Shown piece after piece: positions 16,420 to 51,018 of a DNA stretch of 64,000 nt (positions are counted from its first letter, which is position 1; each line of letters starts with the position of its first letter). A program made the translations under genes and the position numbers. The notes beneath the pieces were generated by a model that was not told where the DNA came from, did no database searches, and saw nothing but the letters and a program-made list of their open reading frames with translations. The DNA is from an uncultured Bacteroidota bacterium (GTDB lineage Bacteria; Bacteroidota; Bacteroidia; Bacteroidales; P3), in assembly GCA_902800395.1 (NCBI GenBank), contig CADCEC010000005.1:105108-169107 (forward strand), read 5' to 3'.

Positions 16420-17927
16420 CACGTCGCGCCGTCTTTGCCGTCCTTGACGGTGACGCCGGCCTCCTTGAGAGCATCGCGAATCTTGTCGCTGGTGGCCCAG
16501 TCCTTGTTGGCTTTGGCGGTGGCGCGGATATCGAGAATGATATGCATCAGGCCGTCGATGAGGGCGGTGTTGTCGCTTGCAGCTTCGTCTTTCATACCCA
16601 TGATATCGAAGAGGAAGGTATCGAAGATGCCCTTCAGTTCGTCGATGTCGGCCTGCGTGAGTTTTATCTTGCCGTCGTTGGCCTGGTTGATGATGCGGGC
16701 GGCGTCGAAGAGGTGGCTGATAACGATAGGCGTGTTGAAGTCGTCGTTCATAGCCTCGTAGCAATTGCTTCGCAAAGTGGAAAGTTGAGAGTGTAAAGTG
16801 GAAAGTTCTCCGCTTGCGGCAGCTTCGTTTTCCACTTTCAGTTTTCCACTTTCCACTTTCTTGTAGGCTTCCATCAGTTTAGCGAAACCTTTCTCGGAGG
16901 CCTGCAGGGCCTCGTTGCTGAAGTCGACAGTGCTGCGGTAGTGGGCCTGGAGGATGAAGAAGCGGATGGTCATAGGCGAGTAGGGCTGCTCGAGCATCTC
17001 CTTGCCGTCCTTGTCCTTATGGCTGCCGGTGAAGAACTCGTCGAGGGTGATGAAGTTGCCCAGCGACTTGCCCATCTTCTGGCCATTGATGGTAATCATG
17101 TTGTTGTGCATCCAGTAGCGGCAGGGAGCGTGACCTGTGGAGGCTACGCACTGCGCTATCTCGCTCTCATGGTGCGGGAAGACGAGGTCCATGCCGCCAC
17201 CGTGGATGTCGAAGGGCGAACCCAGGTATTTGGCGCCCATCGCCGTGCATTCGGCATGCCAGCCGGGGAATCCGTCGCTCCAGGGCGAAGGCCATCGCAT
17301 GATATGTTCGGGGGCGGCCTTCTTCCACAAGGCGAAGTCGCCACTGAAGCGCTTCTCGTCCTGTCCGTCGAGCTCGCGCGTGGTGGCCAGCATCTCTTCG
17401 ATGACGCGGCCGCTAAGCTGGCCATATTTATGGGTGTCCTCCTGGTATTTGCGCACATCGAAGTAGACGCTGCCATTCGAGACATATGCGTATCCAGCAT
17501 CGAGAATCTGCTGCACGAGGGCTATCTGCTCCATGATGTGGCCGCTGGCGTGAGGCTCAATGCTGGGGGGCAGCACGTTGAGGCGCTCCATGGCGGCATG
17601 GTAGCGGTTGGTGTAGTACTGTGCCACCTCCATGGGTTCCAACTGCTCGAGGCGGGCCTTCTTGGCAATCTTGTCCTCACCCTCGTCGGCGTCATGCTCG
17701 AGGTGTCCCACGTCGGTGATGTTGCGCACATAACGCACCTTGTAGCCGAGGTGGCGCAGGTAGCGGAAGACCACGTCGAAGGTGATGGCGGGACGGGCGT
17801 GACCCAGATGGCCGTCACCATAGACGGTGGGTCCGCAGACATACATGCCCACATGGCCCTCATTAATCGGTCGGAAGAGTTCCTTCTGCCGACTTAAAGT
17901 ATTGTATATTAATAACTGCTGTTCCAT
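16410..17927 (-). CDS. cysS: Cysteinyl-tRNA synthetase with an in-frame repeat insertion
   Basis: This class I synthetase has 505 residues. The HIGH-type motif is GHLGH (39-43), preceded by the zinc-site cysteine in [11 protein letters not shown]; the KMSKS loop is KMGKSLGN. Residues about 356-385, in the C-terminal helical region, are a foreign-looking Ser/Glu/Lys/Leu stretch ([13 protein letters not shown] ... [14 protein letters not shown]) encoded by two inverted arrays of a 7-bp unit. The domain then resumes with [13 protein letters not shown], a conserved CysRS block, so the insertion is in frame and presumably tolerated. The start is ATG 17927 with a -7 box at 17948-17955. Confidence 0.95.
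16773..16862. repeat. Pair of inverted tandem arrays (GGAAAGT / ACTTTCC) inside cysS
   Basis: The left array 16773-16808 has GGAAAGT-type units and the right array 16828-16862 has the reverse-complement type; about 20 nt containing TCCGCTTGCGG separate them. The pair stays in frame in cysS. Confidence 0.85.
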
Positions 17928-27537: not shown

Positions 27538-28097
27538 TGGCATACATTCCCGCATTAAAGACCAAATATAAAGAGGAGATTCTTCCTGCTTTGATGAAAG
27601 AGTACGGCTACAAGACCGTTATGCAGGCTCCCCGTCTGAAGAAAATCACCCTGAACCAGGGTCTTGGCAAGGCTGCCATCGCCGACAAGAAAGTCATCGA
27701 CAAGGGTATCGAGGAGATGACCGCTATCACCGGTCAGAAGGCTGTCGCCACCAAGTCGCGCAAAGATATCTCGAACTTCAAACTGCGTCGCGGCATGCCC
27801 ATCGGCGTCCGTGTGACCCTCCGTGGCGAGCGCATGTATGAGTTCCTGGAGCGCCTCGTGACCGCCTCCATCCCCCGTATCCGTGACTTCCGCGGCATCA
27901 ACGACAAGGGATTCGACGGCAAGGGTAACTACACCTTCGGCATCGCCGAGCAGATTATCTTCCCCGAGATCGACATCGACAAGATCGACCGCATCCAGGG
28001 TATGGACATCACCTTCGTCACCTCGGCTCAGACCGATAAGGAGGCTATGTCGCTGCTCAAAGAGTTCGGTTTACCTTTCAAGAATCAACAAAAATAA
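27537..28097 (+). CDS. rplE: 50S ribosomal protein L5
   Basis: The 186-residue protein binds 5S rRNA and contacts P-site t[22 protein letters not shown] and GITGQK-like [18 protein letters not shown] are recognisable, with the [19 protein letters not shown] block. It overlaps rplX by one base. Confidence 0.98.
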
Positions 28098-37365: not shown

Positions 37366-39312
37366 TTATTCTATTATCCATTTCTGTACGGCACCATTGT
37401 TCGTCTGCTGGACGAAGTAGACGCCACGGGACAGTTTGGGCAACTCGACCGTTTGCTCGCCATCCTGCAGGATGGCCTCGCCCATCTGCCGTCCGCAGAT
37501 GTCGTATACGACGAAGGTCCTGCTTCCCGCTGCGCTTTCGTCGAGGAGGATTTGTCCCGCGACAATGCGGAATCCGCCGCCGGCGGGGTGGCTGAGGCCG
37601 AAGTAGCGGGCGTATTCCTCGACGGTGTTCTGGGGCTCGATGCGCAGGAAATCGTCGATACCTGCGACGGCAACTTCCCAGCTGGCAATGGAGGAGGGCT
37701 TGGCAAAGCGGTCACGCTGGTAGGGCACTTCGGAACGGAGCTGTTCCACGATGTCGTGCAGTAGGGGGGCGGTGTTGTCATAGGAGAAATGGGAGTCGAC
37801 GATTTCTTTCAGACGGCGCAGCGTGCGTTCCAGGAACTGCTGGTTGGCGAGGAGTCGACGGAAAAGGAGTGTGGATTGTAGGGAGGTGCGTGTGGTGCGA
37901 CTGGGCATGTTGTAGGTCATGTGGTCGAGGACGTTGATGCAGCCGGGGAAAGGCACGAGGGTGCCGTCGCCGTCGAAGAATATCCAGCGCCAGGAACGTC
38001 CCGCGGTGGACCAGAATCGCACGTTGTTGACGGGCCAGTCGTCGTTGAGCACGAGCACCTGCAGCAGCATGTAGTCTATGAGCGCGTCGATGTCGACCTG
38101 CGAGGCGAGGTATCGGAAGTCCTTCTCGCGGCTGAGGTCGGCCTGTTGTAGCCAGCGGTAGAGGGAGTCCCAGCGGGCGGCGTGGCCATTCTCGATTTCC
38201 TCCCCCCAACAGGCAATGAGGTCTACTTCTTGGTCGGGGACGCGGTAGTGCTCCTCGATGTAGTGCTCGTCGGCTTTCTCTTCGAGGAAATAGACACCCC
38301 AGTATTCGCCGTTGAGGAAGAGCACGACGGGGCGTGTGGCGAGGTGGTCGCAGCGCAGAGGTTCCGCCAGATGCTGGCAGAGCCAGTCTTCGACGCCAGC
38401 GCCGGTCCACGAGGTGGACCAAGGACGGAGGACCAGACGCCTGAATGCTTGATTCTTTTCATCCGCAAAGAAGGGGTAGCGGAAGCGGTTGTCTCCATAC
38501 TCCTTGCGGGCATAGAGGGAAAGGCCTTTCTGCACCAGCACGCGCTGACTGTTGCCGTGGATGCGGAGACCGCAGTCCTGCTCGAGGTCGCCGCCGGCGG
38601 GGTCGTAGTAGGCGAAGGAGGCGTTGCGCTCCCAGTGACGTCCTTTCTGGAAATAGTTGCCGGAGTTGTAGGGGTTGTCAGGGTCGAAGCAGTAACCTGG
38701 CGAGAAGAGGCCGGTGTCGAAGTCGAAAAGGGAGAGGGAGTCGGTGCAGAGCGACACCACGGGGAGGCTGATACGTCGGCCCAGGAGGCTGTCGATGAGG
38801 TAGGCGTGGGTGGTCACCACAGAGCGGCGCTCGCCGGCGCTGTCGAACACGGCGGCACGCACGACAATGATGCGCTGCACCTCGTCGGGGACGAACCAGC
38901 GGTCGTCGGGGACATCCTGCACGCGGTAGAGGTTGGAAGGGGAATAGAGGACGGGAGTCATGGGCAGCGGCTCGCAGTATTCGGGGTCGCATTCTGTGGG
39001 CTCGGCACCGTTGAAGGTGTAGTGAATTCTGAGTTCTGAGTTCTGAGTCCTGAGTTCTGAGTGAGGGAGGAAGTCGATGCGCATGGAGAGGGAGAAGGTG
39101 TCGGCGTAGAAGCCACCGGGATGGGAGAAAACGACCGCCTGGGCGGAGGAGGTGAAGGGTGAGAGGTGAAAGGTGAAAAGTAAGAGAAGGAGTGAGAAGG
39201 AGTGAGAAGAAGTGAGAGGAAGTGAGAGGACAAATGTGCAAAACGATACTATTGTCCTTTCACTCCCATTCACTCCTTTGTCACTCCCTTTCACTCCTTG
39301 TTTAATTTTCAA
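37366..39312 (-). CDS. CotH-family protein with T9SS sorting domain; start uncertain
   Basis: Residues about 200-530 match CotH kinase-fold proteins: DCGLRIHGNSQR, LYARKEYGD, LFLNGEYWGVYFLEEKAD and the late FFDGDGTLV aspartates. The last 75 residues form a T9SS C-terminal domain (VYDICGRQMGEA, LSRGVYFVQ). A hydrophobic export stretch ends near FTSSAQ. No in-frame ATG exists upstream of it; candidates are TTG 39312, GTG 39294 and GTG 39273, all within an inverted tandem repeat. A second in-frame array at 39027-39061 inserts SELRTQNSELR. If exported, it is a surface protein; its kinase activity is unproven. It overlaps the uvrD 3' end. Confidence 0.8.
   Translation of the reverse strand: MKIKQGVKGSDKGVNGSERTIVSFCTFVLSLPLTSSHSFSLLLLLFTFHLSPFTSSAQAVVFSHPGGFYADTFSLSMRIDFLPHSELRTQNSELRIHYTFNGAEPTECDPEYCEPLPMTPVLYSPSNLYRVQDVPDDRWFVPDEVQRIIVVRAAVFDSAGERRSVVTTHAYLIDSLLGRRISLPVVSLCTDSLSLFDFDTGLFSPGYCFDPDNPYNSGNYFQKGRHWERNASFAYYDPAGGDLEQDCGLRIHGNSQRVLVQKGLSLYARKEYGDNRFRYPFFADEKNQAFRRLVLRPWSTSWTGAGVEDWLCQHLAEPLRCDHLATRPVVLFLNGEYWGVYFLEEKADEHYIEEHYRVPDQEVDLIACWGEEIENGHAARWDSLYRWLQQADLSREKDFRYLASQVDIDALIDYMLLQVLVLNDDWPVNNVRFWSTAGRSWRWIFFDGDGTLVPFPGCINVLDHMTYNMPSRTTRTSLQSTLLFRRLLANQQFLERTLRRLKEIVDSHFSYDNTAPLLHDIVEQLRSEVPYQRDRFAKPSSIASWEVAVAGIDDFLRIEPQNTVEEYARYFGLSHPAGGGFRIVAGQILLDESAAGSRTFVVYDICGRQMGEAILQDGEQTVELPKLSRGVYFVQQTNNGAVQKWIIE
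39027..39061. repeat. Tandem array, 7-bp unit TTCTGAG, inside the CotH gene
   Basis: Five copies (one variant TCCTGAG) lie in frame and encode the SELRTQNSELR stretch near residue 90. Confidence 0.85.
39151..39298. repeat. Inverted arrays at the 5' end of the CotH gene
   Basis: A 7-bp array (GGTGAAA, 4 copies, 39151-39178) and a 10-bp array (GAGAAGGAGT, 4 copies, 39184-39223) face a CACTCC-type array in reverse orientation (39258-39298) across about 35 nt. The arrays encode the export signal and contain all candidate start codons except TTG 39312. Confidence 0.8.
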
Positions 39313-47566: not shown

Positions 47567-47644
47567 AATGTATCTTGCTTTAACGCTGTTTTATTTATTT
47601 TGTTGTACAATAATAAAAAAATATATCCCAAGTAGCCCTTTTGC

Positions 47645-47721
47645 TCATTTGTTGTTCGTCTGTTGTTCGTTTGTTGTTCGTTTGTTGTTCGTTTTTTAAT
47701 CGAACAACAAACGAACAACAA
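47645..47721. repeat. 11-bp unit array forming a 21-bp perfect hairpin
   Basis: About four copies of TTGTTCGTTTG lead into a perfect stem, arms 47671-47691 and 47701-47721, with loop TTTTTTAAT. It lies in the divergent thyA/Na-Pi interval (47567-47865), which holds no gene. Confidence 0.85.
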
Positions 47722-47865: not shown

Positions 47866-49569
47866 ATGGAAATTGTACTGGTATGTTTGAAGTTGGCGGG
47901 AGCCCTGGCGGTGTTCCTTTTCGCCATGAAACTCATGAGTGAGGGTCTGCAGAAGTACGCGGGCTCGAAGCTGCGCCACATCCTGACCAAGATCACTGGT
48001 AAGCCGCTCAGCGGCATCCTCGCCGGCACAGGCGTGACGGCCATCATCCAGAGCTCGACGGCCACCACCGTGATGACCGTGGGCTTCGCCGGAGCGGGTC
48101 TGTTGACCCTCGGTGGCGCCATCGCCGTGGTGATGGGCGCCAACATCGGCACCACCGTGACGGCCTGGATCATCACCCTCTTCGGCCTCGGCGGCGGCGA
48201 CAGCGCCGACAAGGTGCCTCTGATGCCGATGATTATCGCCGCCATCAGCCTCTTCTTCATCTTCAGCAAGAAGAATAAGATGCAGTACCTCGGCCAGACC
48301 ATCGTGGGCCTGGCGCTGCTCATCCTCGGCCTCGGCCTCATGGGCGACTCCGTGCCGCCGCTGGACGAGAACGTGGCCCACAGCATCGCCTCCCTGGGAC
48401 AGTGGGGCTACTGGTCCGTGCTGCTCTTCATCGTCGTGGGCGCCATCCTCTGCATCATCCTCCAGACCTCGTCGGCCATGACGGCAGTCATCCTGCTGAT
48501 GGCCAGCCAGGGATGGATAGACTTCCCCACGTCGATGGCACTGGTCATCGGCCAGAACCTCGGCACCACGCTGACGGCACAGGTGGTGGCCATGACCACC
48601 GGCACCACCGGCAAGCGTACCGCCCGCGCACACCTCGTCTTCAACGTCGCCGGTGCCATCATCTTCCTCATCCCCTTCTACCCCATCTGCAACGGCGTCA
48701 TGGCCATCAGCGAGAAGCTCGACGTGCTGCTCCCCAACATACCGCTCATCCCACTGGCTATCACGGTGTTCCATACCCTCTTCAATGTCGTCACCACCGT
48801 CATCCTGGCCTTCTTCATCCCGCAGATTGTCAAGATCGTCACCTGGATGGTGCCCGACAAGAAGGAGGAGGGCGAGGAGGAGTTCCGCCTCACCTACCTC
48901 ACGCCCAACCTGCTCTCCACCGCCGAGCTTAACATCCAGAGCGCCAAGAGCGAAATCGAAGAATTCAGCAAGCGTGTGCTCCGCATGTATACCTTCCTGC
49001 CGGGCCTGCGCACCGCCAAGGAGGACGAGGAGTTCGACGCCATCATGGCACGCATCGCCAAGTACGAGGAGATCACCGACCGCATGGAGATGGAGATCTC
49101 GAAGTTCCTCACCAAGGTGGGGTCGGGCGACATCTCGGAGCACGGCTCCGAGCGCATCAGCACCATGCTGCGCATCATCGACAACCTCGAGTCCATCGGC
49201 GACACCATCTACCAGATCGCCATGACGCGCCAGAGCAAGCGCGAGGACGCCGTCCACTTCGACGCCGGCCTCAACGCCAACCTCGAGGAGATGCGTTCGC
49301 TAGTGCAGAAAGCCCTCGACGTGATGGACAGCAACCTCCACGACTACGACCATGTGGACCTCGACGCCGCCTATGCCGCCGAGCACGCCATCAACGCCTG
49401 CCGCGACCGTCTGCGCAAGCAGCACCTCGACGCCCTCAAGCTCGGCGTCTACGACTACGCCATCGGCAACGCCTACTCCTCCCTCTACGCCCTCTACGAG
49501 AAGCTCGGCGACTACGTGATTAACGTCAGCGAGGCTATCGACGGCAGCCGCAAACATAGCGAAGATTGA
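47866..49569 (+). CDS. Na/Pi cotransporter family protein with C-terminal PhoU-like domain
   Basis: The 567-residue protein contains the two inverted Na_Pi_cotrans repeats with the signatures QSSTATTVM and QTSSAMTAV, about eight membrane helices to residue 325, and a cytoplasmic helical PhoU-like domain (about 360-560, with TPNLLSTAELNIQSAKSEI and NLESIGDTIYQ). It would import phosphate with sodium. It is strongly GC-rich. Right after its stop starts an 11-bp repeat array. Confidence 0.93.
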   Translation: MEIVLVCLKLAGALAVFLFAMKLMSEGLQKYAGSKLRHILTKITGKPLSGILAGTGVTAIIQSSTATTVMTVGFAGAGLLTLGGAIAVVMGANIGTTVTAWIITLFGLGGGDSADKVPLMPMIIAAISLFFIFSKKNKMQYLGQTIVGLALLILGLGLMGDSVPPLDENVAHSIASLGQWGYWSVLLFIVVGAILCIILQTSSAMTAVILLMASQGWIDFPTSMALVIGQNLGTTLTAQVVAMTTGTTGKRTARAHLVFNVAGAIIFLIPFYPICNGVMAISEKLDVLLPNIPLIPLAITVFHTLFNVVTTVILAFFIPQIVKIVTWMVPDKKEEGEEEFRLTYLTPNLLSTAELNIQSAKSEIEEFSKRVLRMYTFLPGLRTAKEDEEFDAIMARIAKYEEITDRMEMEISKFLTKVGSGDISEHGSERISTMLRIIDNLESIGDTIYQIAMTRQSKREDAVHFDAGLNANLEEMRSLVQKALDVMDSNLHDYDHVDLDAAYAAEHAINACRDRLRKQHLDALKLGVYDYAIGNAYSSLYALYEKLGDYVINVSEAIDGSRKHSED

Positions 49570-49570
49570 A

Positions 49571-49625
49571 GGGGAGATAATGGGGAGATAATGGGGAGAT
49601 AAAGAGGAGATAAAGAGGAGATAAA
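49571..49625. repeat. Left array of the four-helix-bundle cassette, 11-bp unit GGGGAGATAAT
   Basis: Five copies begin 2 bp after the Na/Pi stop. The reverse-complement array lies at 50092-50134. Confidence 0.92.
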
Positions 49626-49670
49626 GGGATGATACAATAACTGACAACAATTATAGTGGCGAATCAGCAA

Positions 49671-50054
49671 ATGGAAAAGATGACACGAACATACGAAGAT
49701 TTACTGGCATGGCAGAAAGCGCATCAATTTGTCGTGTTGGCATATAGTACTATAGCGACGTTTCCCTCCTATGAACAATTTGGGTTGTGCTCACAATTTA
49801 GACGTGCTGCCGTTTCCATACCTGCCAATATCGCCGAAGGCTACAAGAAACTTGGTAAAGCAGATAAGCTACGATTCTTTAATATTGCACAAGGCAGTTT
49901 GGAGGAATGCCGTTATTACTGTTTGCTTGCTAAAGACTTAGGTTATATTGATGAGGGAAAATTTACTAATATTGTAGAATCAATCCAAAACACCAGTTAT
50001 TTCCTAAACTCTTATATCAAAGGCGTTGTGAACAAGAACGGTATTAAAGATTAA
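49671..50054 (+). CDS. Four-helix-bundle protein (S23/IVP-like)
   Basis: From ATG 49671 the protein is 127 residues (an alternative ATG lies at 49680). MEKMTRTYEDLLAWQKAHQF, the SQFRRAAVSIPANIAEGYKK block and GSLEECRYYCLLAKDLGYI define the four-helix-bundle family related to proteins encoded in 23S rRNA intervening sequences and to the Avd accessory proteins of diversity-generating retroelements. Members are thought to bind nucleic acid; the role of stand-alone copies is unknown. No reverse transcriptase is nearby. Its codon use is AT-rich, unlike both neighbours, a sign of transfer. Confidence 0.9.
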   Translation: MEKMTRTYEDLLAWQKAHQFVVLAYSTIATFPSYEQFGLCSQFRRAAVSIPANIAEGYKKLGKADKLRFFNIAQGSLEECRYYCLLAKDLGYIDEGKFTNIVESIQNTSYFLNSYIKGVVNKNGIKD

Positions 50055-50091
50055 GAAAATAGAAACAATAGCGACAAACCACATTCGTCCC

Positions 50092-50134
50092 ATTATCTCC
50101 CCGTATCTCCCCTTTATCTCCCCGTATCTTCCCC
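50092..50134. repeat. Right array of the four-helix-bundle cassette, inverted copies
   Basis: Four units of the TTATCTCCCC type (11, 10, 11 and 11 bp) are in reverse orientation to 49571-49625 and end 17 bp before the kinase ATG. Confidence 0.92.
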
Positions 50135-50151
50135 CAAAAAAGAAGAAAATA

Positions 50152-51018
50152 ATGAAACAAATCCTCTTAATCAACGACGTCGTGGGGTATAGCCATGTGG
50201 GCATGGTGGCCATGCTGCCTATCCTCACGCAGATGGGCCACACCACCTATAACCTCCCCACGGCCCTGGTCTCCAACACCCTCGACTACGGCCATTTCAA
50301 CGTCCTCGAGACAACCGACTATATGCGGGGCACCATCCCCGTGTGGCGCCAGCTGGGCTTCCGCTTCGACGCCGTCTGCACAGGTCTGATGTTCAGCGAG
50401 GAGCAGGCCACGCTGGTCTCCTCCTACTGCCGTCAGCTGCAGCGCGAAGGCACCACGGTATTCGTCGACCCCATCATGGGCGACGGCGGCCGCCTTTACA
50501 ACGGCATCAGCGACACGCAGGTGCAGCTGATGAAGGAGATGGTGGGCGTCGCCGACCTCACCTTCCCCAACTACACCGAGGCCTGCTACCTCACCGGCAC
50601 GCCCTACCGCCCCGAGGGGCTCTCGTGGGACGAGGCCTGCGACATGGTCGACGGCCTCCTGGCCCTGGGCGCCAAAGCCGCCGTCGTCACCAGCGCCTGC
50701 CTGAAGGATGAGGCCTCCCCCTCACAGGTGCGCCACTGCGTCATCGGACGCCGCAGCGACTGGCCCCTGGAGGGCTTCCGCCAGCGCGGCAAGGAAGGGC
50801 CTTATTTCTGTATCGACTACGACGAGATCCCCGTGGCCTTCCACGGCACGGGCGACATCTTCTCCGCCGTGCTCATCGGCCACCTGATGAATGGCGAGAC
50901 CCTGCGCGACAGCACCGCCACGGCCATGCAGGTCGTCAGCAGCCTCATCGAGCGCAACCAGGCGCTGCCCGACAAATGCCGCGGCATCCCCATCGAGCAA
51001 TGCCTGGATCTGCTGTAG
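50152..51018 (+). CDS. Pyridoxal/pyridoxamine kinase
   Basis: The 288-residue ribokinase-fold protein has QILLINDVVGYSHVG at the N-terminus, DPIMGDGGRLYNG, and the catalytic FHGTGDIFSAVL (GTGD anion hole). It phosphorylates B6 vitamers to make pyridoxal phosphate by salvage; whether it is PdxK or PdxY type cannot be decided. The cassette's right array lies in its immediate 5' region and may affect its expression. Confidence 0.88.
   Translation: MKQILLINDVVGYSHVGMVAMLPILTQMGHTTYNLPTALVSNTLDYGHFNVLETTDYMRGTIPVWRQLGFRFDAVCTGLMFSEEQATLVSSYCRQLQREGTTVFVDPIMGDGGRLYNGISDTQVQLMKEMVGVADLTFPNYTEACYLTGTPYRPEGLSWDEACDMVDGLLALGAKAAVVTSACLKDEASPSQVRHCVIGRRSDWPLEGFRQRGKEGPYFCIDYDEIPVAFHGTGDIFSAVLIGHLMNGETLRDSTATAMQVVSSLIERNQALPDKCRGIPIEQCLDLL

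Follow-up and report, generated by a model that had tools for sequence, protein, structure and literature searches.

An S23-family gene between inverted short-repeat arrays: a probable hairpin cassette related to 23S rRNA intervening sequences

The S23 locus and its arms

The window, that is, the whole stretch of 64,000 nucleotides analysed here from an uncultured member of the Bacteroidota, carries a small S23/IVP four-helix-bundle gene enclosed by two inverted arrays of an 11-nt unit. Gene and arrays together take up the whole interval from a Na/Pi cotransporter gene, whose stop codon ends at 49569, to position 50152, where a phosphomethylpyrimidine-kinase-like gene starts (Table 1).

Table 1. 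Positions of the S23 cassette and of gene-less array hairpins in the window.
Feature	Position	Strand	Remarks
Gene-less inverted array pair	16774..16860		units AAAGTGG / CCACTTT
Gene-less hairpin	39184..39299		inverted GGAGTGAGAA-type arms; core GACAAATG..TATTGTC at 39229-39256
Gene-less 11-bp array hairpin	47641..47721		class other than that of 39184-39299; upstream of the cotransporter gene
Left arm	49571..49625	+	five 11-nt units, GGGGAGATAAT to GAGGAGATAAA; begins 1 nt past the stop codon of the upstream gene
S23/IVP four-helix-bundle gene	49656..50054	+	GTG 49656, ATG 49671 or 49680; stop 50052-50054
Right arm	50089..50134	-	left-arm unit inverted; ends 17 nt ahead of the start codon of the downstream gene

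Two of the head-to-tail units of the left arm are exact copies of GGGGAGATAAT, one deviates by a single change and two, of the form GAGGAGATAAA, by two changes; the right arm comprises one exact copy, one with one change and two partial copies at a spacing of 10-11 nt. An earlier sequence-only reading of this DNA had described five direct repeat copies and inverted copies around an S23/IVP-like gene, which is confirmed, and had called the gene AT-richer and placed it in a gap between two genes, which also holds (GC content 0.388 vs. 0.549 for the window). At up to one mismatch, GGGGAGATAAT has six matches in the window as compared to 0.65 expected, and none of 100 shuffles gave six. The further statement that the same array type recurs across the window was right for other short arrays; for the 11-mer itself, the sole other match lies at 27954 (one mismatch). 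Folded as RNA, positions 49565-50140 pair through the arms, with the gene looped out between them (z -5.1; none of 100 shuffles folded as well). No Rfam match was obtained in the window at gathering scores. In its architecture, the cassette consists of a long stem of two inverted arrays, built from a unit of 7-11 nt, whose loop contains an S23-family gene.

The S23 protein

The cassette reading frame matches the Pfam family 23S_rRNA_IVP (PF05635; E 7e-35) as well as NCBIfam TIGR02436 (E 1e-33). At E ≤0.001, the only Pfam-type matches were 23S_rRNA_IVP and a bAvd match below its cut-off, with no Y1 HUH domain and no catalytic domain recognised, so that an enzyme of the host or of another element would be required. 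Using an AF2 model of the protein (mean pLDDT 89.2), Foldseek returned 2gsc as the best PDB match (E 2e-7), followed by 2rld (E 1.6e-4); the model also matches the retroelement protein Avd (4dwl; E 4.5e-3, TM 0.76), along with several chains of 8ub7, a retroelement complex. The protein of 2gsc is described as a homopentamer in an excerpt of PMC4990558. Across 32 aligned S23 sequences, Q39, S46, N50, E53 and E76 are invariant (numbering from ATG 49680). Values of dN/dS, for which the window protein was likewise counted from ATG 49680, lie between 0.024 and 0.110 in the seven of 12 S23 gene pairs where they were computable; they are rough because dS exceeds 1 in these pairs, and suggest that S23 genes are under purifying selection. 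The GC content of the gene falls below that of its flanks at 76 of 80 loci. One further locus of the host genome, L009 (G000:C2:55306-55521), encodes a longer S23-like protein with the four-helix-bundle suffix domain TIGR04258 and has no clear inverted arms; it is possibly a separate host gene.

Inverted arms at S23 genes across the Bacteroidota

The host genome (G000) contains nine PF05635 genes, and such genes occur in 58 of 59 genomes of the genus (0 to 18 genes per genome), 85 of 119 of the order and 157 of 198 sampled from the phylum. For each gene, the upstream 300 nt were scored against the downstream 300 nt in reverse complement. The gene sets consist of best-scoring genes, not of a random sample, and lean to well-conserved genes because the DNA came from best-scoring genes and added fetches; most of the genomes are draft assemblies. 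In the genus set, 80 unique genes were reduced to 76 by dropping four with short flanks, and the 95% cross-locus level was 27. Here, the median inverted score within a locus was 42, compared to 20 for the direct orientation at the same locus and 18 for inverted comparisons across loci. Inverted arms at or above the 95% level were found for 60 of the 76 genes, 33 of them reaching the 99% level, whereas direct scores reached their own 95% level in 18 (17 score at least 27). Sixteen genes fall short of the inverted 95% level, and direct exceeds inverted in 11 of 76 (L007, L008, L019, L036, L038, both genes of L081, one of L089, L093, L098 and L108). The window gene scores 53 inverted and 22 direct. 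Among the nine host copies, five score at least 27 (L001, L002, L003, L006, and L005 through its identical copy L107) and four lower (L004 26, L007 17, L008 20, L009 21).

The pattern extends outward. Inverted scores reached the 95% level for 20 of 28 genes in the order set (direct 10; one gene dropped) and for 17 of 30 in the phylum set (direct 4). For named relatives, chiefly assemblies of Prevotellaceae and further Bacteroidales, 79 genes came from the best 80 of 295, and nine were dropped; 67 of the remaining 70 score at least 27, though only 24 lie above their cross-locus 95% level, which is as high as 57 because relatives share units. A score of at least 27 was far rarer among the controls: two of the 68 window genes reached it, including one of the 31 that are small, as did three of 31 ORFs from the named loci. 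The prediction that inverted arrays would surround other four-helix-bundle genes is thereby borne out (60/76 and 67/70 vs. 2/68 and 3/31). Chance is rejected as an explanation on the basis of the shuffles, the cross-locus levels and the window-gene controls.

Left arms with inverted partners fit a period of 7, 8 or 14 in 35 of 60 cases in the genus and of 9-11 in 29 of 67 among the named relatives, with no clear period at 60% self-match in 16 of 60 and 34 of 67, respectively. They are predominantly rich in purines (53/60 in the genus, 15/19 in the order, 9/13 in the phylum, 67/67 in the named set). Between different loci, defined by non-matching flanks, so that a few could be misclassed, arm similarity correlates with protein identity (Spearman 0.20; 0 of 500 permutations), and its median, for the arms alone, is 0.56 for 16 pairs with at least 70% identity vs. 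0.17 for 1405 pairs below 40%. That the arrays are merely an insertion target is countered by these similar arms of related genes and by the unit common to gene-less copies at separate sites of one genome.

Occupied and empty sites

The site of the window cassette was compared in five relatives (G036, G002, G009, G022 and G046). The alignment of the cotransporter gene reaches the stop codon in the first four and breaks 172 nt earlier in G046, where the gene end is still visible; within 330 nt past this gene, none of the five has an S23 gene or such an array. In G009, G022 and G046 (L277, L280, L282) the kinase gene is convergent with the cotransporter gene, whereas both are co-directional in the window. 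Hence, the window copy sits at a rearranged junction, and its right boundary is not readable as a simple insertion. Because of their different gene order, the kinase orthologues gave no clean two-sided empty site of the kind that the sequence-only reading proposed to look for.

For 11 further host elements, the flanks were looked up in G036, G002 and G046; nine could be located in each of these genomes, L245 in G046 only and L007 in none. The L004 site is empty in G036 and G046 and holds a different gene-less element in G002. The L005 site is occupied in G036, empty in G046 and again taken by a gene-less element in G002. At the L002 site, none of the three has an S23 gene, and other hairpins are present in G036 and G002. 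As for gene-less host elements, L243b occurs in G002 with the same core, and in G046, with flanks of 98% identity, it is absent; G002 also has L244, with another unit, and G036 and G046 lack it; and the sites of L242, L243a and L246 lack the element or contain other arrays or inserts instead, including a related element with a longer loop at the L246 site of G002. No consistent target-site duplication of the gene-bearing cassette emerged from inspection of the empty sites by eye, where the spacers differ too much for a duplication to be read. Among the closest pairs listed for the 80 genes, only one lies within a single genome, at 70.5% DNA identity, and no recent gene-bearing copy within one genome was found among these genes. 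Overall, occurrence at many loci, similar arms at different loci and presence that is polymorphic between species sustain the proposal that gene and arrays behave as a single unit without a transposase gene of its own, which may move by transposition or homing; vertical retention at one locus in all relatives, combined with array-free four-helix-bundle genes elsewhere, is not what the genomes display.

One junction is informative for the arms themselves. The host cassette L001 lies between an M24 peptidase gene and a gene of the PRK/uridine-kinase family as judged by Pfam. Among 30 loci of this junction, eight have an S23 gene, 12 have the peptidase adjacent without S23, and in 10 it is non-adjacent or out of view. 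In L110, L111 and L125, the aligned parts are only 2 nt apart, short array remnants remain in L115 and L120, and L122 carries a gene-less hairpin of another unit. When arms were exchanged between seven of the eight S23 copies (L116 was left out), the median score was 27.5, compared to 52 for the copies' own arms, and 4 of 5040 permutations reached the observed sum; the own-arm score was the row maximum in only three of the seven. L033 at this junction has no clear arms. Left and right arms thus co-vary between species at one orthologous junction. Two side observations concern the same place. L114, with a gap of 677 nt, contains a Y1_Tnp (IS200-like) gene (E 4e-21) between palindromes in a REPtron-like layout. 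A comparison of L119 (G036) with L109 (G000) gives identities of 98% for the peptidase gene beside the cassette, 67% for S23 and 84% for the neighbour at the opposite end, which looks like an exchange that stopped at the S23 cassette.

Gene-less hairpins

Array hairpins also occur without a gene. The one at 39184-39299 folds strongly (z -10.1), with none expected by chance, and was not seen at the corresponding position of three out of five relatives. By eye, its core has the opposite orientation at the same locus in G036 (L268), as if the loop had been flipped. In the gap that corresponds to 47641-47721, five relatives (L270, L277, L279, L280, L282) have different arms that, by eye, are still self-complementary. 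In one group of cassettes, GACAATA is found upstream of the gene (10 of the 80 genes) and CATTTGTC downstream (12 of 80); for the 7-nt class, CTGACGCA was rejected as a shared inner motif, as it lies upstream of only four of 80. The core GACAAATG-N4-30-TATTGTC without a gene is present in 28 of 59 genomes, with seven copies in G000 and up to 15 per genome, whereas the backwards-pattern control gave 0 in all 59. Of 43 cores, one in the window and 42 read in fetched stretches, 29 are surrounded by arms scoring at least 27, vs. 2 of 424 window positions. Cores are more common in genomes with a close S23 gene (12/16 vs. 16/43; one-sided Fisher p 0.010, ignoring phylogeny), yet such a gene is missing in 16 of the 28 core-bearing genomes, and cores are missing in four of the 16 genomes with one. 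In L242-L246, L001 and L023, a small TCGCGCTTCGCGCTAG-like palindrome is found inside one arm, giving a hairpin nested in a hairpin.

A mutational hotspot, at which slippage and hairpin-templated correction build and homogenise arrays at gene junctions while S23 genes persist as passengers, would account for the many arrays and hairpins without an S23 gene and for the unrelated arrays at one junction in different species. The arms at 47641-47721 that change completely yet remain paired and the reversed core in G036 (both by eye) are also in its favour, and the step that matches the arms may well itself be mutational. As the origin of the cassettes, a hotspot is nonetheless unlikely, given that S23 genes are bracketed far more often than others, that related S23 genes at different loci share similar arms, and that such arms accompany an S23 gene within an Azospirillum 23S rRNA (see below).

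Carriage by ordinary transposons, i.e. array hairpins riding in elements with terminal repeats and target duplications that are mobilised by a DDE transposase in trans, has its footing in a single genome. In G006, a multi-copy gene-less element (L228-L241) carries the array hairpin inside outer terminal repeats, and eight of 13 aligned copies show these imperfect repeats together with 4-bp direct duplications by eye, which makes another transposition route likely in G006. This contrasts with G000, where the arrays themselves form the ends of the gene-less copies and inspection by eye showed no outer repeat; even in G006, the shared outer end is missing on the right side of L237 and L240. As a general explanation, such carriage is therefore highly improbable.

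S23 genes in other phyla and within rRNA

Protein searches of plasmid records returned 28 and 33 records, mostly from cyanobacteria, from which 19 cyanobacterial loci were fetched and one disrupted copy was excluded. Of the resulting 18 plasmid S23 genes, 10 have inverted arms scoring at least 27 (direct 2), and 15 have tandem arrays nearby, mainly with 7-8 nt units, such as AGTAGGG/CCCTACT in Nostoc edaphicum and GGGAAAA/TTTTCCC in Nostoc ATCC 53789. An assembly artefact alone is ruled out by the presence of the pattern in these complete plasmid records. Two Nostoc plasmids (L321, L408) have different S23 genes to either side of the same hypothetical gene, WP_104899637. A Gemmatirosa locus combines a PF05635 gene (E 4e-32) with inverted arrays (inverted 61, direct 52). 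Phage records gave no S23 match at 1e-5, and a DNA search of E. coli genomes gave no match. As for the literature, four-helix-bundle genes appear in lists of phage regions of Flavobacterium columnare in an excerpt of PMC5524665, and the excerpt of PMC5041132 has nothing on S23 proteins; among the open-access PMC titles and abstract beginnings listed, there was no report of S23 genes flanked by inverted tandem arrays.

The Azospirillum locus L418 lies inside a 23S rRNA gene (RF02541, 1037 bits) and has an open S23 frame (PF05635, E 5e-33) with inverted arms of readable 7-nt units (inverted 47, direct 17). The proposed link to 23S rRNA intervening sequences is thus upheld by one locus, an S23 gene with inverted heptamer arms. 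Altogether, cassettes are found in Bacteroidota and Cyanobacteriota, with one locus each in Pseudomonadota and Gemmatimonadota.

In L319, L325 and L407, cyanobacterial S23 genes are located within CRISPR operons in the orders Cas10, S23, Cmr3 and Cas6, S23, Cas4. Such contexts would suit a module that serves the host: within operons, the hairpins would terminate transcription, insulate or offer RNase III processing sites, with S23 domesticated as an RNA-binding partner. The intergenic position of the cassettes, with both neighbours co-directional in 40 of 76 cases according to ORF-based gene calls, the strong RNA folding of the hairpins and the apparent purifying selection on S23 genes point in the same direction. 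However, close species differ in which junctions are occupied, and S23 gene counts range widely among genomes of the genus, which renders a host function distinctly improbable as the general explanation.

A selfish hairpin cassette

The locus is, with somewhat better than even probability, an S23 hairpin cassette, i.e. a selfish intergenic relative of the S23 intervening sequences of 23S rRNA that has given rise to gene-less derivatives. The same design, with repeats specific to each site, recurs in intergenic positions of many Bacteroidota and cyanobacteria as well as within one rRNA gene, which suggests that such tiny mobile elements form a large family that has been overlooked. In the likeliest mode of working, the transcript or an exposed single strand would fold into the array stem, which, or the top of which, may then be bound by the S23 protein, in keeping with its pentameric relatives and Avd-like fold. 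The protein could thus help host enzymes to copy or insert the hairpin at gene junctions, where a loop would be tolerated, and gene-less hairpins may be served in trans. Slippage and hairpin-templated copying by strand switching would keep the arms alike while the unit drifts.

A wider reading, held tentatively and at slightly less than even chances, is that S23 hairpin cassettes constitute a widespread selfish class, of which the rRNA intervening sequences are copies residing in rRNA helices, while their arms, remnants and gene-less derivatives account for the tandem heptamers of bacteria such as Nostoc and Xanthomonas. The S23 pentamer would then read the shape of a hairpin over its sequence, so that each insertion can carry its own unit. 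S23-family genes are of unknown function despite their presence in most of the sampled Bacteroidota genomes, and no source of the heptameric intergenic repeats of cyanobacteria and Xanthomonas is given in the excerpts of PMC4692102 and PMC4679880. The shared anatomy links both to the rRNA intervening sequences and offers a testable origin for all three. If true, the ends of a mobile element would be set by pairing instead of a fixed sequence.

Comparison with known systems

The heptameric repeats of Xanthomonas and Nostoc are tandem arrays of 7 nt, mostly intergenic and sporadically distributed, and generally not associated with mobile elements; convergent pairs number 70 and 75 in two Xanthomonas strains (excerpt of PMC4692102). 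TAACTGA repeats occur in Beggiatoaceae, Cyanobacteria and Bacteroidetes, with no transfer mechanism evident (excerpt of PMC4679880). In these two excerpts, the terms S23 and four-helix-bundle have 0 occurrences. The resemblance to the cassettes lies in the arrays of 7-nt type near the cyanobacterial plasmid S23 genes.

With Avd of diversity-generating retroelements (4dwl, 8ub7), the window protein shares the same predicted fold, but it stays below the cut-off of the Avd family model (33.8 vs. 80 bits). The MITE/DDE features of terminal repeats plus duplication were seen by eye in eight of the 13 gene-less G006 copies described above and not in G000 elements.

Closer parallels are provided by two systems. 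Like the S23 intervening sequences of rRNA, the cassette has an S23 ORF in a loop, complementary ends that form a closing stem and a GC content below that of the host. The intervening sequence of Coxiella comprises a 28-bp stem and an S23 ORF with tandem GACAGAT heptamers directly upstream (excerpt of PMC4990558), to which the inverted heptamer arms in Azospirillum can be compared. Unlike these sequences, the window cassette and the other loci whose neighbours were read lie between protein genes outside 16S and 23S rRNA, their unit varies by locus, and their gene-less relatives are multi-copy. As in the REPtron/REPIN system (tnpA_REP with REP palindromes; excerpt of PMC6006769), a gene flanked by inverted repeats is accompanied by dispersed gene-less hairpins in the same genome, whereas the S23 cassette has no Y1 HUH nuclease and its arms are tandem arrays with a locus-dependent unit. 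Since it is not located in rRNA and lacks a Y1 nuclease, the window cassette is a member of neither class as defined, and its presumed mode of working resembles that of an rRNA intervening sequence joined with that of a REP-type system.
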